Source: an uncultured Pelagibacteraceae bacterium
Lineage (GTDB): Bacteria > Pseudomonadota > Alphaproteobacteria > Pelagibacterales > Pelagibacteraceae
Direction of reading: 5' to 3'
NCBI GenBank assembly: GCA_902598485.1
Contig: CACKBU010000001.1
Span: forward strand, 1-64,000
DNA length: 64,000 nt
In this document: positions 32,737 to 43,390 of the stretch, piece by piece
How positions within the stretch are numbered: the stretch's first letter is position 1
Layout of the letters: every line of letters begins with the position of its first letter
Position numbers and translations under genes: made by a program
Notes under the pieces: model-generated
Databases searched by the model: none
The model's input: the letters and a program-made list of their open reading frames with translations, nothing else
What the model was told of the DNA's origin: nothing

Positions 32737-33852
32737 ATGAGTGAGAATAAAACTATTGTTAATAGTTGGAATGAGTGGGATCCATTAAAACATGTAATTG
32801 TTGGAAGAGCGGATGGTACTTGTATACCAGCACCAGAGCCTGCATTAGATGCAAAAGTTCCAGAAGACAGTGATATGCGAGGTCAGTTTGGTCCAAGAAC
32901 AAAAGATACTGTCGATAAAGCAAATGAATTATTAGATAACTTTTCAAATATGCTTCAAAAAAGAGGTATTAAAGTTGATCGACCAACACCAATAGATTTT
33001 AATCAAAAAACATCTACACCTGATTGGGAAGCAGAAACCATGTTTGGCTGCATGCCTCCAAGAGATGTTTTGTTAACTGTGGGTAATGAAATCTTAGAAG
33101 CTACAATGAGTTACCGATGTCGTTGGTTTGAATATTTATGTTACCGACCACTTTTAAAAGATTATTATAATCAAGACCCTAACATGAGACACGAGTCTGC
33201 TCCAAAGCCAAGACTAACAGATGCAGATTACAGAAAAGATTATTTATCAGATAAAATTGGTGTTCAAAAAAGATTAGAGTGGACTGAAAAAAAATATTTT
33301 GTAACCACTGAAGAAGAGCCATTGTTTGATGCAGCAGACGTATTGAGATTTGGAAAAGATTTAGTTGTTCAACATGGTTTTACAACAAATTTAAAAGGAA
33401 TTGATTGGCTAAAAAGACATTATAAAGATCACAGAGTTCATGCAGTTAACTTCCCAGGTGATCCTTATCCAATTCACATTGATGCAACTTTTACACCAAT
33501 AAAGGAGGGTTTAATTATTAATAACCCACAAAGAAGACTTCCTAAAGAACAAAGAAAATTATTTGAGGATAATGGTTGGGAAATAGTGGACAGCGCACAA
33601 CCAGCGCATAACGAACCACCACCATTATGTTATTCATCAACATGGCTATCAATGAATGTTTTAGTATTAGATCCTAAGACTGTATGTGTGGAAAAAAGTG
33701 AAACTTATCAAGCTGAACAATTGGATAAATTAGGAATGGAAGTTATACCAGTTGAACTTAGAGATGCATATGCTTTTGGAGGAGGCCTTCATTGCTGTAC
33801 AGCTGATGTGTACCGAGAAGGTGAGCTCAAAGATTATTTTCCAAAACAATAA
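32737..33852 (+). CDS. Glycine amidinotransferase (AGAT) family
   Basis: 371 residues. Closely resembles animal and bacterial arginine:glycine amidinotransferase: NEWDPLKHVIVGRADG at the N-terminus, CMPPRDVLLTVGNEILEA, FVTTEEEPLFDAADVLRFG, PIHIDATFTPI, STWLSMNVLVLD and FGGGLHCCTADVYREG. The catalytic triad maps to D198, H248 and C353. The family moves an amidino group from arginine to glycine, giving guanidinoacetate and ornithine, reversibly. It follows the creatinase gene by 5 bases. Other acceptors (lysine, inosamines) are known for relatives and cannot be excluded. Confidence 0.88.
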   Translation: MSENKTIVNSWNEWDPLKHVIVGRADGTCIPAPEPALDAKVPEDSDMRGQFGPRTKDTVDKANELLDNFSNMLQKRGIKVDRPTPIDFNQKTSTPDWEAETMFGCMPPRDVLLTVGNEILEATMSYRCRWFEYLCYRPLLKDYYNQDPNMRHESAPKPRLTDADYRKDYLSDKIGVQKRLEWTEKKYFVTTEEEPLFDAADVLRFGKDLVVQHGFTTNLKGIDWLKRHYKDHRVHAVNFPGDPYPIHIDATFTPIKEGLIINNPQRRLPKEQRKLFEDNGWEIVDSAQPAHNEPPPLCYSSTWLSMNVLVLDPKTVCVEKSETYQAEQLDKLGMEVIPVELRDAYAFGGGLHCCTADVYREGELKDYFPKQ

Positions 33853-34097: not shown

Positions 34098-34177
34098 TCA
34101 ATCAATTAATATTTTGAGTATTGCTGCTCCTAAAATAATAATTTAAGCATAAACCCACTTTGGTAATTTTTTTCTAC

Positions 34178-34918
34178 TCATTTTTTTTCTATCTTAGATC
34201 TGATTTCATCACTCAATTTCTTTTTTTCATTGTACCATCTGCAATTATCACAATCTTGTCCAGATTTAGGATATTTATCAGAATCTAAACATGCTTTTAA
34301 ATCAACAAGAATATCTTCAATATAATCTGTTTTAAGTTTGTAAGATAACAAAGTAGTTTTGAAATTTACTTTTTTATCAAAAGTAGTTTGGCTTTGATCT
34401 GCAGCATTACAAATTAACCAATAGCCTGTATCATGGACCTTAAAATCATTAAGTTGTAATAGATAAGCATAGAAATCTAACTGTCTTAAATATCCTTTAT
34501 GATAATGTTTTGAAGATGTCGTGTAATCTTCAAGATTTTTGTTAGATGTTGCTTTGTAATCTAAAACAACAATTTCATCAGTATCTTTGTTAAGCCACAA
34601 GTCATCTAAAGCACCATAAATCTCAATACCTGTTTTTTTAGAAGTTGCTCTTACACCACTAAAGTTGTGTCTGTATTTTCTTAATGTTTCTTCATCTAGG
34701 CCGTTATAAGGAACAAAGTTTAATTTATATTCCTCAAATATAGGATGTGGTTTTCCTTCTGCTCTCAGCTTATCGAATTCTTCTTTTAGCAGTGCATCTA
34801 CCCTTGAATTGATTGGAAATCCTGGTGTGCTTGGTGGTTTAATTTTGTGTTTTTCTAAAAGATAAAAGCAAAGAGGGCATTTAATAAAACTATCCCATTT
34901 AGATCTACTAATTTTCAT
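34178..34918 (-). CDS. PD-(D/E)XK superfamily nuclease, RecB/Cas4-like, single domain
   Basis: 246 residues. Starts MKISRSKWDSFIKCPLCFYL, the 'S.S....C...F' entry of Cas4/AddB-type nucleases. Active-site blocks are YGALDDLW (Asp) and IVVLDYKATS (D-x-K), then QLDFYAYLL (motif with Gln and Tyr). Cysteines near the N-terminus (CPLC) and the C-terminus (CDNCRWY) could hold an iron-sulfur or zinc site. No cas genes or repeat array are nearby, so it is not a CRISPR Cas4. Stand-alone, with a 125-base spacer to the next gene; role in DNA repair or defence is inferred. Confidence 0.78.
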   Translation of the reverse strand: MKISRSKWDSFIKCPLCFYLLEKHKIKPPSTPGFPINSRVDALLKEEFDKLRAEGKPHPIFEEYKLNFVPYNGLDEETLRKYRHNFSGVRATSKKTGIEIYGALDDLWLNKDTDEIVVLDYKATSNKNLEDYTTSSKHYHKGYLRQLDFYAYLLQLNDFKVHDTGYWLICNAADQSQTTFDKKVNFKTTLLSYKLKTDYIEDILVDLKACLDSDKYPKSGQDCDNCRWYNEKKKLSDEIRSKIEKK

Positions 34919-35043
34919 ATTTCTTTAATTTTATATCTAACACTAATTTACTTTTATTCTTCTTTATAATATAATGAAATTGTCCGTGATTTAGAAATAA
35001 CTCTACTTGCTTCGGACATTAAACATTAACGCTAAAGGAGCAT

Positions 35044-36502: not shown

Positions 36503-36688
36503 ATGGAAATAGGCCGTGTCTGTAAGTACTGTCACGTCAGTACATATATCGCATACGATAACTGCAACCCCGTTTACAAACAATCATTTAAATTTGAAAT
36601 AAGGCCAGGCGAACACAACAGTTTAGTTTGGGACAAGATCATAAAAATATTTGAGAAAAATGGATACAAAGTGGAGCTTAAATCATGA
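36503..36688 (+). CDS. Small cysteine-containing orphan protein, atypical codon use
   Basis: 61 residues. Three cysteines and a histidine near the N-terminus (CKYCHVSTYIAYDNC) could bind a metal. Good SD (AGGAG, nine bases before ATG). Many C-ending codons (TGC, CAC, GTC, AAC) contrast with surrounding genes and point to foreign, possibly phage, origin. Overlaps the next gene by four bases. No family recognised. Confidence 0.55.
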   Translation: MEIGRVCKYCHVSTYIAYDNCNPVYKQSFKFEIRPGEHNSLVWDKIIKIFEKNGYKVELKS

Positions 36689-37251
36689 AAAGAGTTTTAC
36701 TTATTATTTTATTACACTTATCTCTATTTTTTATTGTCTTTGCTTATCATGCTCAAGCTGAAGAAGATGAGAGGTGGACAATTGATAAATACGAAAGTTT
36801 AACATATGCACGAGTATATGGAGAAGTAATTCATGGAGATAGTTTAAATTTCTTTATTCAATCAAAAGATAACTGTGAAAAAGTTTGGCATAATTTCACT
36901 TTTTATACCTATGAGCAGCCTGGTGATATAAAACAACTATTAAATAAAAATATACCAATTAAAATTAATGAAGAAGAAGTTACTGCTTATGTTGATCACA
37001 TACAGCCCTTTTTAATGGGTTATAGAGTATTATTGTCTTTAGGATCGTTTCCAATAAAAGAATATATTTATAAATTAAACAACTTTTATATTGAGGAACA
37101 AAGATTTGAGATTGAAATCATTGATGGGATTGATTTTAAAGCTAGTAAATATTTTGATATATCAATTAATAGATGGAATTTAGATAAGCTTGTTCCTTCA
37201 GTTTTAGAAGCACACAGAAAGTGCAAACAAATAAAAAATATAGATAGCTGA
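36685..37251 (+). CDS. Exported hypothetical protein
   Basis: 188 residues with a signal peptide (about 1-25, cleaved near HAQAEEDE). The mature part has two cysteines far apart (KDNCEKVW near residue 63 and RKCKQI near the end) that could form a disulfide. Composition is mixed alpha/beta. ATGA overlap with the preceding small gene despite that gene's different codon use. No family recognised. Confidence 0.65.
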   Translation: MKRVLLIILLHLSLFFIVFAYHAQAEEDERWTIDKYESLTYARVYGEVIHGDSLNFFIQSKDNCEKVWHNFTFYTYEQPGDIKQLLNKNIPIKINEEEVTAYVDHIQPFLMGYRVLLSLGSFPIKEYIYKLNNFYIEEQRFEIEIIDGIDFKASKYFDISINRWNLDKLVPSVLEAHRKCKQIKNIDS

Positions 37252-37304
37252 TAAAGATAAATTTCAAAATATTTATAAAAAAGATATTATACAAGTTGAT
37301 TCTT

Positions 37305-38315
37305 ATGAAAAAAATAACTTCAATTGATTTATTTGCAGGTGTTGGTGGAATGAGGATATCTTTATCAAGAGCGGCTAAAAGATTGGGGTTAATAGATGAT
37401 TGTAAGTTATATTCTGAAATTGATAGTTATAGTCGTCAAACTTATGTTGATAATTTTCCTAAAACAAAATTAATTGAGGATATTAAATCTGTAGCGAGAA
37501 AAGATATTAAAAAAATTATACCAGATCACGATATTTTGCTTGCAGGTTTTCCATGTCAACCTTTTTCAAGAGCAGGGATTTCAAAAAGAAAAAACCTTAA
37601 AAGAGCCCATGGTTTTGATGACAAAAATCAGGGTGATTTATTTTTTAATATTTTAGATATTTTAAATACAAAAAAACCTAAAGCATTTATTTTAGAAAAT
37701 GTTCAAAATTTAAAAACTTATCAAAATGGCAAAATACTCAATCAAATACTAAAGGAGCTAAGGGTTAATTACTATGTTCCTGATCCAAAAATTTTAGATG
37801 CGCAGGATTTTGGATTAGCACAAAGACGAAAAAGAATTTTTATAGTTGGTTTTTTACGATTCAATGGTGAATTTGATTTTCCAACTCCAACTTATAAAAA
37901 AACAACTGTAAAAGATTTTTTAGATTTGTATCCTCCAAAAAAATATATAATTTCAGATTTATTATGGTCTAGTCATAAAAAAAGAAAAATAAAAAACAAA
38001 AAAGCAGGAAAGGGTTTTGGGTTTAGGTTAACTCATCCAAGAGATAAAGCAACTGTAACTATTTCTGCAAGATATTATAAAGATGGAAGTGAGTGTTTGT
38101 TGTATAGGGGAAAAAATAAAAATCCTAGACGATTAACCCCTAGAGAAGTTTTTAGACTACAAGGTTTTCCTGAAAGTTTTAAATTTTCTGTTTCAGATTT
38201 ACAAGCTTATAAGCAGGCAGGTAATACAGTTCCAATAAATGTCGTTGATAAGGTATGTTCAAAGGTTCTGGTTTACATTTTAAAACAGAATATTTTATAT
38301 AAAAAAGTTGCTTAA
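37305..38315 (+). CDS. DNA (cytosine-5-)-methyltransferase, orphan
   Basis: 336 residues from the ATG at 37305; an in-frame TTG at 37296 adds only three. All main C5-methyltransferase motifs are present: DLFAGVGGMRISL (I), GFPCQPFSRAG with catalytic C84 (IV), ILENVQNL (VI), AQRRKRIFIVGF (VIII) and KQAGNTVPINVV (X). The target-recognition region between VIII and X is short. No restriction endonuclease gene of the usual kind lies next to it; it converges with the herA gene, one base apart. Could be a solitary regulator or the self-marking part of the adjacent HerA-NurA cluster. Confidence 0.93.
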   Translation: MKKITSIDLFAGVGGMRISLSRAAKRLGLIDDCKLYSEIDSYSRQTYVDNFPKTKLIEDIKSVARKDIKKIIPDHDILLAGFPCQPFSRAGISKRKNLKRAHGFDDKNQGDLFFNILDILNTKKPKAFILENVQNLKTYQNGKILNQILKELRVNYYVPDPKILDAQDFGLAQRRKRIFIVGFLRFNGEFDFPTPTYKKTTVKDFLDLYPPKKYIISDLLWSSHKKRKIKNKKAGKGFGFRLTHPRDKATVTISARYYKDGSECLLYRGKNKNPRRLTPREVFRLQGFPESFKFSVSDLQAYKQAGNTVPINVVDKVCSKVLVYILKQNILYKKVA

Positions 38316-38316
38316 A

Positions 38317-40098
38317 TTACAGTTTAGTTTTAGCTTTTTTCGCAGATGCTGCTATTGAACTTATACTTTCGCTATTTTGATCTCTTTTTTTTATATTAGA
38401 GGAAGTTTTTTTATGATGTTCAGAATTTTCATTAATAAAATCCTCATCTCCCATAATTGAGGTTTCCAATTCTTCATCCCTTTTTACCTGCACCTGAAGT
38501 GGGAATTTTACTGCATGTCCACTTATGAAAGCTTGACCATTAGCAAATGCTTTTAAAGCTTCTCTATCTTGATCGGACATTTGCTCCATTACTCTTTGGA
38601 CCCATCCCTGATCTCTAGGGTTAACTAGTTTTAAAATTAAAAAACTATTACACTGTGCCAAGGTAGTTTCATCTAGCCTATTTGGTCTTTGTGAAATTAA
38701 GATAACACCTGTTCCAAATTTTCTTCCTTCAGTTAATAGTTTTCTAATTGTTAGCAACGATGGAGTACTCTTTTTTTCTTCTCCACTTCCTGGTACAAAA
38801 TTGTGAGCCTCTTCTATAATCGAGGCAAAAGGTCCTATTCTATCATCATCTAATGATGCTCTATTTTTAAATAAAGTTTCTAACGTGATTGATACAATCA
38901 TACTTTGTAATAATCTACTAAAACCACCAAGATAAAATATTGAGATTTGATTTGATCTTACAACATCCTCTGGATCTGTTATTAGATTTGGCATATTTTC
39001 AAATTCAAAAGAATTATCTTTAGATTTAAGTCTTTTGGCTAATTGTTTATTAGTTTTTTGCATTAAATCTATTTCTCTAATAAGCTGTTTTACTGTTCTT
39101 AGAACAGCACCAATAGTTCGTTTAGTTGTTTTATTATCTTCTTTCTCTAATTCGTTTCTAATTATTGTCTCAAACTCTTTTAAATGCTCTTTTATATCTT
39201 TTGAATCATACTGTCTTCTAGAACCTGTTGCTGCAGGATCCCCAAAAGCAATTTTTGCCTCATTTGACTCCACAAATTCATAAAATTTATCTGTTTGAGC
39301 TGGAGAAAGAGATAAATCAAACTTTGTGAATAATGTTATCATCATTTCCACAACTTCATCATGTCCTTTAGCCATTAATGCGGGTTGAAAAATTTTTACA
39401 TCCACTGGGTTTCCATTTTCGTCTTTAAGTTTATCCCTATTAGAATAAAGACCCAAATAATCACCATGTGGATCAAAAATTAACATTGGATAACCATAAT
39501 CTGATAATCCCTTTATAATTCTTCTTGTTGCAACAGTCTTCCCACCACCTGTCATCGCTAAAATAGCCATGTGTCTAGCAACAATTTTTGATGCTGAAAC
39601 ATTTATCTCTATATCTTTTCTTGAAATTAAAGAACCGATATGGATAAGTTTTTCTCCTTCAGAGGTTCCTGAAAGAAGTTTTTTTACAAGTTTTTCATCT
39701 GGTGTCCTAACTTGCGCTGAGGGCATCACTGGATAGTTCAAAGGTTTAAGATATATTTGTTCTTGTTCAGTATCTTTTTGATCACATTGACCTAAAATTT
39801 CAACTTCAGCTTCTTGGTATTCGTTATCTGTTGAAGCTAATGTTTCTCTTATTTCTATTTGTTCTTTAGCAATTTCTTGCGCTATTTCACTTGGGAAAGC
39901 TGTATTAGTTCTATTTATAGAAAGAATTCTTCCCCAAACATAAACATTTCTTGCAGATTTGTTTGACTCTGATGCTGGTATTTCTGCTTCTGTGTAAACT
40001 AAATCTCCTTTACTACCAGCCATGCTAGTCAATATAAATGAATAACTATCAGTTGTAGTATTTCCTACAACAACTCCAATTGTATTTTCCTCACTCAT
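38317..40098 (-). CDS. herA: HerA-family hexameric DNA helicase/translocase
   Basis: 593 residues. N-terminal HAS-barrel region (GVVVGNTTTDSYSFI), then the FtsK/HerA ATPase core: Walker A AMTGGGKT at about 181-188, IFDPHGDY, Walker B FASIIEEAHNF at about 424-433, ISQRPNRLDETTLAQC with the arginine-finger region. The C-terminal 60 residues are charged and low-complexity. HerA works with the NurA nuclease in end resection in archaea and some bacteria; the NurA-like gene is two bases upstream in the same operon. Not an FtsK, which is larger and has membrane spans. Confidence 0.92.
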   Translation of the reverse strand: MSEENTIGVVVGNTTTDSYSFILTSMAGSKGDLVYTEAEIPASESNKSARNVYVWGRILSINRTNTAFPSEIAQEIAKEQIEIRETLASTDNEYQEAEVEILGQCDQKDTEQEQIYLKPLNYPVMPSAQVRTPDEKLVKKLLSGTSEGEKLIHIGSLISRKDIEINVSASKIVARHMAILAMTGGGKTVATRRIIKGLSDYGYPMLIFDPHGDYLGLYSNRDKLKDENGNPVDVKIFQPALMAKGHDEVVEMMITLFTKFDLSLSPAQTDKFYEFVESNEAKIAFGDPAATGSRRQYDSKDIKEHLKEFETIIRNELEKEDNKTTKRTIGAVLRTVKQLIREIDLMQKTNKQLAKRLKSKDNSFEFENMPNLITDPEDVVRSNQISIFYLGGFSRLLQSMIVSITLETLFKNRASLDDDRIGPFASIIEEAHNFVPGSGEEKKSTPSLLTIRKLLTEGRKFGTGVILISQRPNRLDETTLAQCNSFLILKLVNPRDQGWVQRVMEQMSDQDREALKAFANGQAFISGHAVKFPLQVQVKRDEELETSIMGDEDFINENSEHHKKTSSNIKKRDQNSESISSIAASAKKAKTKL

Positions 40099-40100
40099 TT

Positions 40101-41510
40101 TTATTTCCCTTTTGGTCGGTTAAAAAAAGATCTATCTGATGATACAGCAATTTTTCTTGCAATTGCAACCGCTCTTTTATTACCTGACTCCATTGCTTTT
40201 CTCAAAGTTAGCATAATTGCATTTTTTCTTATATTTCTTTTCATCCAATCAGGTGTTTTTGCTAATTTATCCACAATGTCTAATCCTACAGGGAAGGAAT
40301 AGCTTTTTAACAATCTTGAAGAATGAAATACCATATTTAAATCATCCATATAACTCTCTCTAACCTCCATGGTTTCAACTCTTATTGGTTTTTTATTCTC
40401 TGAAACTTTTAAGTAAGTTGAAAATGATTTTGGAATCCCTAGGCCCCAGTATTCATAATCCCATTTTCTAACTGGCCATTTATGTTCTTCTTGTTTATTT
40501 ATTTCTTGAGGATCAATAAATTCCCCCACATTTAACATATAATCAAAAAAAGCAGAATCAGATATCTGGAATTTTCTAATAATGTCTGCCATCCCATCAG
40601 GATCATTAGGTTTACGTGAATTTCTATATACATCTGCATTTTTTAAAATTCTTTTATTGATCATGCTGTCCATTAATTGTTTTGTAATAGGTCCATAAGC
40701 AGCTGGTCCTGGTCTTTCAACACATCCATATACCGGAACATCGAGTTTTTTAATTTTTTTTAAAATTTCGCAATAAATTGGAATAAATTTTCTATATTTT
40801 TCTAGAGGATCCTCATCTCTGTGCTCTGGTAGTTCTGCATTTATTCTATGAGGAAGTAAAAAATTGTATGTTTCTAGACTGTAAGGAGGGTATTTTTTTC
40901 CAGATATTTCTCCCTCAACTTCATATCCAGCCGCAGGATTAACCATAGGTCCATGAAGAAATATCATATCATTTTTTGTTGGAATTTTTTTACCTTCTTT
41001 AGGCCAATCCAACTCACCAAGACCTGTTCTTAGTGCAGAGGCAGCTTCAAAAATAATTCTTGTACCGTCTTGCATTTTTTTTAAATCATCAGCTAATCCA
41101 TCATCATCACTCTGATCAAATAATTCAGAGTTTGGATCAAAAAGGTCTGTGACAACATACGGATCAGAAATTAAATCTTCTCTATTGGAACTTTTGTCTC
41201 CAGGTTTAACCTTATAATTTACAACTCTTAATCCAAAGGGCGCTGAGGTAGGAATTTGCACTGAGGCTTGACCACCATCAATATTGAAAATAGTTTTTTT
41301 TCCTTTGAAATTCCAAAATTCTTTTGGATTATACTCAAGTTTCTTTATGTATCCGTTATCTCGTAATATTTTTGAAAACTTATCTGAAAGATTAATAATT
41401 ACTTCCATATAGTTATCTTGTATATTTGTTTGTGTAGCAGCCAAAACCATTAAATCAGAATAGTAATCCTTTTTAAGCCTTGCTCTGATTTTATCTTTTT
41501 GAGTAACCAT
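40101..41510 (-). CDS. nurA: NurA-like nuclease, predicted HerA partner
   Basis: 469 residues. The NurA motif I is seen as IFNIDGGQASVQIP with D78; helix-rich region with IIFEAASAL follows, then MIFLHGPMVNP where NurA proteins normally have an acidic D-G-P/S motif, here with His in the Asp position. The C-terminal part has SFPVGLDIVDKLAKTPDW, where a late Asp is expected. Total length is above a typical NurA, with extra linker segments. Pairing with HerA makes the assignment fairly safe; loss or shift of one metal ligand is possible. Confidence 0.78.
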   Translation of the reverse strand: MVTQKDKIRARLKKDYYSDLMVLAATQTNIQDNYMEVIINLSDKFSKILRDNGYIKKLEYNPKEFWNFKGKKTIFNIDGGQASVQIPTSAPFGLRVVNYKVKPGDKSSNREDLISDPYVVTDLFDPNSELFDQSDDDGLADDLKKMQDGTRIIFEAASALRTGLGELDWPKEGKKIPTKNDMIFLHGPMVNPAAGYEVEGEISGKKYPPYSLETYNFLLPHRINAELPEHRDEDPLEKYRKFIPIYCEILKKIKKLDVPVYGCVERPGPAAYGPITKQLMDSMINKRILKNADVYRNSRKPNDPDGMADIIRKFQISDSAFFDYMLNVGEFIDPQEINKQEEHKWPVRKWDYEYWGLGIPKSFSTYLKVSENKKPIRVETMEVRESYMDDLNMVFHSSRLLKSYSFPVGLDIVDKLAKTPDWMKRNIRKNAIMLTLRKAMESGNKRAVAIARKIAVSSDRSFFNRPKGK

Positions 41511-41714
41511 TTATTTATTTTTTAATTCTTCTATCCACTTGTTAGTTTGTTCTAATCCTGCTGAAGAAGTTTTCATTGGCCTCTTATTTAATTTTTTTCT
41601 TCTTTCTACTCTATACAAGAACTCTTCATTTACGTTTCCAAGGGTTTCTAAATCTTTTTTTTTTCTGGCTTTAAAAGCTATATCCATAAGTTCTTCGAAG
41701 TTTAAATTTCTCAT
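41511..41714 (-). CDS. Small stand-alone copy of the zinc-finger protein's C-terminal domain
   Basis: 67 residues. Aligns without gaps over about 60 residues with the C-terminus of the protein encoded just upstream: FEELMDIAFKARKKKDLE here against YDDLMDIAFKARKNKDLA there, and a shared end pattern of Q-T-x-x-W-I-x-E-L. So it is a tandem partial duplication. It overlaps the upstream gene by four bases (ATGA) and abuts the nurA gene. A protein-binding adaptor role is inferred. Confidence 0.75.
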   Translation of the reverse strand: MRNLNFEELMDIAFKARKKKDLETLGNVNEEFLYRVERRKKLNKRPMKTSSAGLEQTNKWIEELKNK

Positions 41715-42499
41715 TGTTTTTTAATTAATTCTTTAATCCAAAATTCAGTTTGATTGTAACCTTTTTCAGCTGTTTTTGTTGGTATTTTACCCATATCTTT
41801 TTTATTTATTATTCTTCTATAAAATTCACTATTTATATCTTTTAAGCAAGCAAGATCTTTATTTTTTCTAGCTTTAAATGCTATGTCCATTAAATCATCA
41901 TAACTAGACAAAATATCATACAACATCTCAGATCGTTTGCCTTTAACTGTTTTAGGCATAGATTTCTTCCACCAACAATTTGGAAAGGTTGAGCAGCTTA
42001 TAAACCATTGTTGATTTGAAAAAGAATATCTTGTAGTTGCGTCGCTTCCACATTTTTCACATTTTTCCATTCCTTTAGGTAAAGGGGGAGATTTAGGCAT
42101 GGCTTGGTCGTTATGAATTTTAATTCTCTCTGCTGTACTTTTTTCCATTTCCCTTGCACATGGTGTACAAATTTTTGTATTTTTTTTAATTTTTAATCTT
42201 GTTAACAAAATTGGTTTTTCACATTCTGCACATGTTACAATATTTTCTGGATCTAATATTAAATCATGTTTATTATTAATTATATGCAACGGAAAAGTTT
42301 CACACTTACCACACATCATTTCCTCATAAAGTTCTGAAAAAATATTTATGTCATATTGTTTGCTAGTTTCATAAATTTGCTTTCCAAATTTAGTATCAAA
42401 ATAATTTTGAAGATTTTCCTTTTTAAGTTCTATTGAAAAATCACATTTTCGATTACCACAATATATTCTCCAATCCCAATTATTGGTATTTAAAACCAT
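41711..42499 (-). CDS. Multi-zinc-finger protein of the HerA-NurA operon
   Basis: 262 residues from the ATG at 42499; an upstream TTG at 42511 is disfavoured because the ATG forms a TGATG junction with the preceding stop. Several Cys-pair knuckles: CGNRKC, CGKC, then CAEC...CTPC with the spacing of a DksA/TraR zinc finger, and CEKCG...CSTFPNC like the zinc ribbons of type I topoisomerases. The C-terminal 62 residues match the next small gene. Likely DNA or RNA binding; no catalytic domain seen. Confidence 0.75.
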   Translation of the reverse strand: MVLNTNNWDWRIYCGNRKCDFSIELKKENLQNYFDTKFGKQIYETSKQYDINIFSELYEEMMCGKCETFPLHIINNKHDLILDPENIVTCAECEKPILLTRLKIKKNTKICTPCAREMEKSTAERIKIHNDQAMPKSPPLPKGMEKCEKCGSDATTRYSFSNQQWFISCSTFPNCWWKKSMPKTVKGKRSEMLYDILSSYDDLMDIAFKARKNKDLACLKDINSEFYRRIINKKDMGKIPTKTAEKGYNQTEFWIKELIKKQ

Positions 42500-42825
42500 C
42501 AAGTTTTCCAAATTTTTTTTACTAATTCTAAGAATTTAATTTCTCTATCCTTAACAATCATATCAGCTGCAGCTAATCTTTTTGAAAGTTCTAATACATT
42601 TTCTCTCAAAGATTGGTCCTGAATATTATTTAAATAATATATACAAGAAGTATCAAAATCATCTCTAAAACGATCACTCATTTTTTCTAGTTCTTCTTCA
42701 ATGTCTACATGAAAATTTTCTTCAGAGATTAAATCGTTGATAAAGTCTTTTTCTTTTTCATGAAGTTCATTATCAGAAATAGCTAAAAGAATAAGTATAT
42801 TTATAATATTGTCTGATTCATTCAT
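42499..42825 (-). CDS. TerB-like domain protein
   Basis: 108 residues, all helical. Two acidic repeats in the TerB style: LLAISDNELHEKEKDFINDLI near the N-terminus and AAADMIVKDREIKFLELVKKI at the C-terminus. TerB domains occur in tellurite-resistance operons, DjlA, and predicted phage-defence or stress systems with helicases. First gene of the tightly linked set ending in herA. The TGATG junction couples it to the zinc-finger gene. Confidence 0.7.
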   Translation of the reverse strand: MNESDNIINILILLAISDNELHEKEKDFINDLISEENFHVDIEEELEKMSDRFRDDFDTSCIYYLNNIQDQSLRENVLELSKRLAAADMIVKDREIKFLELVKKIWKT

Positions 42826-42922
42826 CTCGTTCGAATTTATAAACTAAGAATAACAAATTTTTTATAACATGTAATTAAATCTAATATATTTTCTAAAAAA
42901 ATACTGAAATTAGGAGAATACT

Positions 42923-43390
42923 TTATCTAAAAAATAAACTTTTTCTAATATCTATAATTTCTCTGATCTTTTTGTCTTTAATAGCATTCCAAGAAACGAA
43001 TAAAGTACATAATTGATACAAGGCAAATATCTCATTTTTTTGATTTTGAGACAAATCACTATCTGCCTCTACATAGTTTTCAAAATAAGAAATATTATTT
43101 CTTGCACAGTTTAAATAATATTTACAAGCATCTGTTACTGTAGCGGTTGACCACCAGTTTGAGTCTCTGAAAAGATTAGATATTTCTTGATAGAAAGAAC
43201 TTGTTTCAGAAATAACTAAATCCTTTTGAACATTTTCTGAAAACTGATCTAATTCAAATTGAATTAAAGCTAATATCTTTTTTTCACTACTTCTCTTAAC
43301 ATGTAGTTCAATAACATTTCTATATGACATGGAATTAATTTTATTCCAATTATCAAAAAAATCATTTGGTGCTTTGTTGAGATCGCTCAC
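42923..43390 (-). CDS. Hypothetical helical protein upstream of the HerA-NurA operon
   Basis: 155 residues, predicted mostly alpha-helical, acidic, with a conserved-looking segment (NWWSTATVTDACKYYLNCARNN). No domain recognised. Same strand as the TerB-like gene, 97 bases upstream, so it could belong to the same unit or have its own transcript. Confidence 0.6.
   Translation of the reverse strand: MSDLNKAPNDFFDNWNKINSMSYRNVIELHVKRSSEKKILALIQFELDQFSENVQKDLVISETSSFYQEISNLFRDSNWWSTATVTDACKYYLNCARNNISYFENYVEADSDLSQNQKNEIFALYQLCTLFVSWNAIKDKKIREIIDIRKSLFFR

Follow-up and report, generated by a model that had tools for sequence, protein, structure and literature searches.

Gene content of the locus

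Within a 64,000-nucleotide stretch of contig CACKBU010000001.1 from an uncultured Pelagibacteraceae bacterium of the SAR11 group (assembly GCA_902598485.1), here called the window, we analysed a compact cluster in which a HerA-type translocase and a predicted NurA nuclease are encoded beside a 5-methylcytosine (5mC) DNA methyltransferase (MTase). Five minus-strand open reading frames (ORFs), for a TerB-like protein, a zinc-finger protein, a protein of 67 amino acids (aa), NurA and HerA, form a tight operon, and the MTase gene is convergent with herA, with 1 base between them. The spacing within the operon is 2 bases between HerA and NurA and 0 between NurA and the small gene, followed by overlaps of 4 bases (small gene and zinc-finger gene) and 13 bases (zinc-finger and TerB genes), the last of which assumes a TTG start and shrinks to 1 base with the ATG at 42499 (read by eye). 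The features are:

37259-42921, no strand: exchangeable cassette (approximate ends), delimited by breaks in nucleotide homology against sister genome G312 (locus L060) and against locus L001
37296-38315, plus strand: 5mC DNA methyltransferase of the HhaI/Dcm class, 339 aa (PF00145, 1.4e-78; PDB matches; PCQ motif)
38317-40098, minus strand: HerA-type translocase ATPase, 593 aa (DUF87, 8e-26; PDB 9x1l, 8.7e-35; motifs)
40101-41510, minus strand: predicted NurA nuclease, 469 aa, with a DGG motif at D78 (through its relative in locus L034; weak-model fold comparison)
41511-41714, minus strand: small helical adaptor, 67 aa, duplicating the C-terminal domain of the zinc-finger protein (49% identity, 1.6e-13)
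41711-42511, minus strand: zinc-finger protein, 266 aa, with a DksA/TraR-type C4 finger, a Top1-type ribbon and a C-terminal helical adaptor domain (Pfam; homologue in locus L018)
42499-42825, minus strand: TerB-like protein, 108 aa (PF05099, 2e-5; identity to L018 and L019)

A sequence-only reading of the window had described five minus-strand genes separated by 2 bases or less or overlapping, with TerB-like, zinc-finger, adaptor, NurA-like and HerA products, and an MTase converging with herA one base away. The ORF coordinates agree with this layout, and the product assignments are borne out by the searches described below. Two amendments are needed. The small adaptor gene is present, but its product repeats the helical domain found at the C-terminus of the zinc-finger protein. 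The unit to which the five-gene operon belongs is also larger and, with ends near 37259 and 42921, takes in the MTase.

The cassette is bounded by the 3' ends of the flanking genes at 36685-37251 (plus strand, 188 aa) and 42923-43390 (minus strand, 155 aa). Both were considered as possible members and rejected, as these flanks are common to G312. When we looked for repeat- or insertion-sequence-driven mobility, only AT-rich 9-mers matched between the two cassette ends, and no repeats were seen at the ends.

Identification of the HerA, NurA and methyltransferase homologues

The window HerA matches Pfam DUF87 above the cut-off, a possible N-terminal HAS-barrel (PF09378) scores 22.9 bits (9.4e-5) against a cut-off of 25.2, and its best PDB match is the HerA-NurA complex of T. 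kodakarensis. The Walker A (GGGKT), Walker B (IIEEAH) and SQRP motifs are all present and align in 20 HerA rows, three of which have SQQP in place of SQRP. The protein also matches the PADLOC HerA models (best 6.3e-52).

For the 469-aa partner, identity runs through relatives. The window protein itself scores 17.2 bits (0.0037) against Pfam NurA, below the cut-off of 21. Its relative in L034, a locus on a 92-kb IMG/VR contig, matches this family at 41.2 bits (1.8e-10) and the window protein at 2.9e-72 over residues 5-466 of the latter, thereby securing the prediction that the window encodes a NurA. The NurA of locus L039 also lies above the cut-off, at 25.4 bits, and the fused NurA of L040 has no Pfam match at 0.01. 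The AlphaFold2 model of the window NurA (predicted local distance difference test score, pLDDT, 45.9) is too weak for detailed claims. Fold comparison with this model placed NurA or HerA-NurA entries in rows 1-8 (Z 5.4-6.9, where values below 8 can reflect a common arrangement), led by those of T. kodakarensis, P. furiosus, S. solfataricus and D. radiodurans; directly below came the TdpAB complex entries 8wet and 8wfd (Z 5.3, row 9, and 5.2), with a foamy-virus RNase H in row 10 (Z 5.2). In the HerA-NurA complex structures we took chain G, from its length, to be the nuclease. Because such Z values can reflect a common arrangement, it is the sequence chain that carries the NurA identity. PDB sequence searches with the NurA gave nothing meaningful, and no PADLOC model matches it. 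In the alignment of NurA sequences, which covers 15 of the 17 SAR11 loci (L025 and the fragment L032 are omitted), one motif reads an invariant HG where NurA usually has DG, and a D-to-H change is suspected.

The MTase matches cytosine-specific methyltransferases in the PDB at 1.3e-56 and M.HhaI at 5e-42, and its PCQ motif contains Cys87. Among the ORFs of 37259-42921, Pfam recognised no stand-alone restriction endonuclease, and NurA is the only nuclease that it recognised in the cassette.

The HerA-NurA pair is accessory and lies in an exchangeable cassette

NurA relatives occur in 16 of 397 sampled genomes of the family and 3 of 398 of the phylum, the window's own genome (G000) included in both counts, and in the class sample only the window's own was found (1 of 385). 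One further SAR11 locus (L001) came from genome contigs, and two distinct loci came from viral contigs. In the orders around genomes G1077 and G861, NurA was found in 1 of 197 and 1 of 48 genomes, each time the centre genome itself. The window NurA has no match in phages nor, by its own patterns, in viral contigs; the L034 NurA has none in plasmids or phages, and the L039 NurA none in plasmids. The pair is thus accessory and sporadic.

Sister genome G312 shows what else can occupy this site. Its flank proteins are 99% identical to those of the window on one side and 91% on the other, and nucleotide homology between the two (G312 locus L060) breaks off at 37258 and is regained at 42922. Between these points G312 carries a different cassette (L060:4881-14547) that encodes two 5mC MTases, MTaX1, a Z1 protein, a GHKL ATPase, a NERD-helicase and a 201-aa product, and that resembles a MORC/Z1-type restriction cassette. 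Since homology breaks on either side, with another cassette in between, the MTase and the operon behave as one exchangeable unit. In L001, homology to the window stops at 37273, directly before the MTase start, and the next L001 ORF matches no window protein; because L001 continues into unrelated sequence beyond the MTase, the same cassette seems to sit elsewhere in that genome. A simple guess is that exchange proceeds by recombination in the flanks.

These observations bear on the possibility that the operon works in repair by resecting DNA ends, the function put forward for HerA-NurA of archaea and Deinococcus; TerB and the zinc fingers would then act as loading factors. HerA and NurA are indeed named resection partners in a 2026 study of the T. 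kodakarensis proteins, whose authors nevertheless doubt resection there (PMC12977600). The sequence-only reading had left repair and modification-linked defence side by side, and had held that an operon universal to SAR11 core genomes and lacking the MTase there would favour repair. The operon is far from universal, and the repair reading accordingly loses ground; replacement by a restriction-modification (R-M)-type cassette at the same place and the MTase linkage described below also tell against it, and we regard it as very unlikely. The defence alternative is supported by context, namely patchiness, the MTase in the cluster and replacement at the slot.

Two differences from relatives were also seen outside the cassette. 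A minus-strand PD-(D/E)XK nuclease gene at 34178-34918 lies inside a segment (34098-34962) without homology to G312 and is weakly similar (1.2e-5) to a gene upstream of TerB in L018. Near 33852, genomes G312, G078 and G1304 carry a 349-aa gene after the counterpart of the 32737-33852 gene (Beta_elim_lyase in G312), and the window has none there.

Two kinds of HerA-NurA locus in SAR11

The SAR11 loci fall into two kinds. The window's kind, with TerB, is found in G000, G212 (L018) and G361 (L019). L001 belongs with them by identity (HerA 91%); its contig ends inside NurA, before any TerB gene would be reached. The 5mC MTase converges with herA in all four. G000, G212 and G361 (82%, 93% and 63% complete) have exactly one PF00145 gene each, which is the cassette MTase, and genome-wide searches found PF00145 in one of the 13 genomes that carry the other kind and in 7 of 20 NurA-negative genomes, the latter being the most complete ones listed rather than a random draw. 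In L018 and L019 the equivalent MTase gene overlaps an HNH gene. The earlier description of the window MTase as an orphan holds only in that no classical endonuclease accompanies it. Directly upstream of TerB there is a PD-(D/E)XK gene in L018 and a DUF2779 gene in L019.

The second kind comprises 13 genomes (L020-L032), with no TerB match and with other small genes. No MTase was found with a profile of ten MTases in the 13 stretches of 4.8 to 20 kb around these loci; for L024-L025 the search covered ORFs with both ends inside the stretch, and the absence is weak for L027 and L032, because L027 is only 4.8 kb long and L032 holds only a NurA fragment.

As side observations on this second kind, its small genes include CXXC-type proteins and its flanks recur between genomes. 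Several of its loci have an AAA_15 (RecF/OLD-like) ATPase, for which Pfam searches covered L021 and L031, together with a 317-433 aa gene of an unnamed family upstream.

Methyltransferase linkage beyond SAR11

Four loci beyond SAR11 also encode the pair, two in genomes of another class of the same phylum (L039 in G1077 and L040 in G861) and two on IMG/VR contigs without an assigned host (L034, and L059 on a 54-kb contig). Their G+C content ranges from 0.41 to 0.63; that of the window is 0.30. L034 contains an integrase, a Dcm-type MTase, an AspBHI/Mrr-type restriction endonuclease, Vsr, NurA, HerA and AIPR. In L039 the MTase and HerA-NurA converge, like their counterparts in the window but 138 bases apart, and AIPR lies on the other side. 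L040 encodes the MTase, NurA, HerA and Vsr on one strand, with overlapping MTase and NurA genes, and L059 encodes NurA, HerA, AIPR and the MTase on one strand, with overlapping AIPR and MTase genes. An MTase is therefore in the cluster in 4/4 of these loci, AIPR in 3/4 and Vsr in 2/4; the MTase adjoins the pair in L039 and L040 and lies one gene off in L059 and two genes off in L034. The AIPR proteins match PADLOC MzaE (2.7e-95 for L059, 1.2e-101 for L039 and 1.8e-106 for L034). Counted over neighbourhoods, a check that the sequence-only reading had suggested, the MTase accompanies the pair in four of four loci of the window's kind, four of four beyond SAR11 and none of the 13 of the other kind.

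In a HerA tree of 19 rows and a NurA tree of 18, which omit L025 and L032 and, for NurA, also the truncated L001 sequence, a single branch with 100/100 support divides the MTase-linked from the unlinked rows. Linked rows make up 8/19 in the HerA tree and 7/18 in the NurA tree, and the unlinked rows are all from SAR11. As the trees are unrooted and the HerA tree has long branches, the split shows no ancestral side.

The nuclease genes near the pair suggest another possible arrangement, in which an HNH, AspBHI/Mrr-type or Vsr enzyme would first cut unmarked or wrongly marked DNA and HerA-NurA would then degrade it from the break, as a defence counterpart of RecBCD/AddAB. Candidates for the first cut are the AspBHI/Mrr-type enzyme and Vsr in L034, Vsr in L040 and HNH in L018 and L019, along with the PD-(D/E)XK and DUF2779 genes upstream of TerB, and T. 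kodakarensis HerA-NurA is reported to be exonucleolytic on double-stranded DNA (PMC12977600). However, neither the window cassette nor the L059 operon, where NurA and AIPR are the only nucleases recognised, showed a recognisable gene for this first cut, and we judge this clean-up role improbable, if less so than resection.

As a separate observation, L040 (4156-4755) and L059 (7452-8051) each have a domain of about 200 aa fused to the N-terminus of NurA, a candidate DNA- or mark-sensing domain with no usable Pfam match.

TerB, zinc-finger and adaptor proteins

The window TerB scores 25.3 bits against PF05099, above the cut-off of 24.4, and is 64% and 61% identical to its counterparts in L018 and L019, respectively. 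Both finger matches of the zinc-finger protein (zf-dskA_traR, 3.8e-5; Zn_ribbon_Top1, 1.4e-6) fall below the Pfam cut-offs, and the zf-dskA_traR match of its L018 homologue lies above. The model of this protein (pLDDT 42.7, with only residues 201-266 over pLDDT 50) is too weak for detailed claims. The helical domain is present as a single copy fused to the fingers in L018 and as a stand-alone protein in L019, where no finger part was found, so that what the three loci have in common is this domain rather than the fingers.

Relatives of TerB were found in 5 of 217 family genomes, in three loci (L074-L076) besides those of G000 and G212. In each of the three, the TerB relative lies directly behind a same-strand Mrr-type nuclease gene (recognised by Pfam in L074 and L076, and by eye in L075). 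Searches with the zinc-finger protein, which has no match in viral contigs, returned four of the 217 genomes: G000, G212, G198 with the adaptor part only, and G050, whose marginal match we do not regard as a relative. In G198 (L077), a 350-aa gene and a gene for an N6/N4 DNA methylase lie in line with the adaptor relative. The neighbours of TerB and the adaptor elsewhere in SAR11 thus point to nuclease and methylation systems.

Two of these arrangements may be systems in their own right: TerB with the Mrr-type nuclease as a possible two-gene system (L074:9130-10021, L075:9236-10104 and L076:10043-10934), and the adaptor relative and N6/N4 DNA methylase near an SNF2-like helicase gene (L077:4047-10266) as possibly another R-M-like system built on the same adaptor.

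A proposed restriction-modification-like defence

The explanation we favour is that the cassette is an R-M-like defence system, with 5mC as the mark of self and HerA-NurA as the nuclease that destroys DNA without it, a proposal for which we see the chances of being right and wrong as evenly balanced. In this scheme the MTase would mark the host chromosome at its recognition sites, and HerA and NurA, which probably form a complex as their relatives do, would act as a translocating nuclease, drawing double-stranded DNA into its channel and breaking down the two strands. DNA bearing the 5mC mark would either keep this machine away or fail to recruit it. In SAR11, the TerB and zinc-finger proteins and the small helical adaptor might form a recruitment or licensing module and are candidate 5mC readers; in the distant relatives their place would be taken by AIPR, Vsr or the additional domain at the N-terminus of NurA. 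Phages would be the presumed targets. Somewhat more tentatively, we propose that HerA-NurA is an interchangeable engine of a class of 5mC-based restriction systems that shares its MTase, Vsr and AIPR companions with MORC/Z1 systems and in which methylation is read either directly or via TerB, the zinc-finger protein and the adaptor.

Several observations weigh against joint action of the MTase and HerA-NurA. Defence genes cluster in islands anyway, so that neighbourhood alone is no proof of it. More than half of the loci that carry the pair (13 of 21) are of the unlinked kind, with no MTase found nearby, and the linked set was partly chosen after the MTase had been seen. The MTases of the SAR11 loci are only 23-27% identical to those of the four loci beyond SAR11. 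Since the MTase gene overlaps the HNH gene in L018 and L019, it may belong there to a self-contained type II pair. Between these two loci, moreover, identity is 90% for the MTases and 88% for the HNH proteins but only 67% for HerA, 58% for TerB and 54% for NurA, so the MTase side has moved separately. An 85% identical DNA block (L018:12343-14625 and L019:5819-8093) covers the 3' third of herA, HNH and the MTase, compared with 65-73% in the other aligned blocks, and is probably a recent exchange of the modification side. Such replacement perhaps reflects a change of specificity, or else independence. The pattern is reversed between the window and L001 (HerA 91%, MTase 80%).

These points would be accommodated if the slots were shared by two independent defence modules, a plain R-M system or solitary MTase (with or without HNH) and a self-triggered HerA-NurA. 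The MTase-HNH pair of L018 and L019 looks complete in itself, its side of the locus stands out by the DNA identity just given, and HerA-NurA occurs without an MTase in 13/13 unlinked stretches. On the other hand, independence sits poorly with an MTase in every cluster of the window's kind and in every one beyond SAR11, with the overlaps of MTase and NurA genes in L040 and of AIPR and MTase genes in L059, with the clean split in the trees, and with a window cassette that, NurA aside, has no recognised endonuclease. We therefore hold independent modules to be unlikely, though the strongest of the competing explanations.

If the favoured R-M-like reading is true, SAR11 bacteria, with their very small genomes, swap whole systems for telling self from non-self at one slot between close relatives, and this bacterial HerA-NurA lineage would gain a role in defence.

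Comparison with known systems

Among the openly licensed papers that our searches returned, no title or abstract start describes the combination of HerA-NurA with TerB, an MTase or AIPR, although an earlier description is possible; three articles (PMC10855626, PMC6102401 and PMC11291478) name NurA in the reference list only. Among the nearest relatives in function are the HerA-NurA systems of archaea and Deinococcus-Thermus, which likewise have the translocase and NurA in one operon and share the HerA motifs. The window differs from them in its adjacent 5mC MTase, in its TerB, zinc-finger and adaptor genes, in its patchy and exchangeable distribution, and in having no Mre11-Rad50 genes in the operon. 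According to the 2026 study, the T. kodakarensis complex cuts both strands of double-stranded DNA, fed by HerA in an ATP-driven manner and dependent on Asp49 of NurA; its authors favour an antiviral role (PMC12977600). A HerA-NurA lineage tied to a 5mC MTase in distant bacteria makes that antiviral proposal testable.

Among defence systems, Sir2-HerA and DUF4297-HerA also pair a HerA translocase with a partner enzyme, but in the window that partner is NurA, and no cassette protein matches Sir2 or DUF4297 in Pfam or PADLOC. With type II R-M systems that have an HhaI/Dcm-like MTase, the window shares a 5mC MTase with a PCQ motif, and differs in lacking a recognised classical endonuclease. Cytosine methylases and Vsr are frequent in MORC operons, and AIPR is common in R-M operons, according to Iyer et al. 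(2008, PMC2292703). The HerA-NurA loci resemble the MORC/Z1 R-M operons and Mza in their Dcm-type MTase, Vsr and AIPR companions, and such a cassette occupies the window's slot in G312. The engine is different, being HerA-NurA in the window rather than a GHKL ATPase and a Z1 protein; neither of these is matched by Pfam in the window cassette, and both are in the G312 slot.

TdpABC combines a modification gene with a HerA-like and NurA-like translocating nuclease as its restriction part, the mark being a phosphorothioate made by TdpC. The window is alike in having HerA-like and NurA-like partners beside a modification gene. It differs in that this gene encodes a 5mC MTase, no other modification gene and hence no TdpC-type phosphorothioation gene being recognised in the cassette, and in the added TerB, zinc-finger and adaptor genes or, in the relatives, AIPR and Vsr. 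By analogy, TdpABC appears to be the nearest precedent for a modification-gated machine of the HerA-NurA type, and the window cassette, if HerA-NurA is indeed an engine of 5mC-based restriction, would be an equivalent of TdpAB gated by 5mC in place of phosphorothioate.

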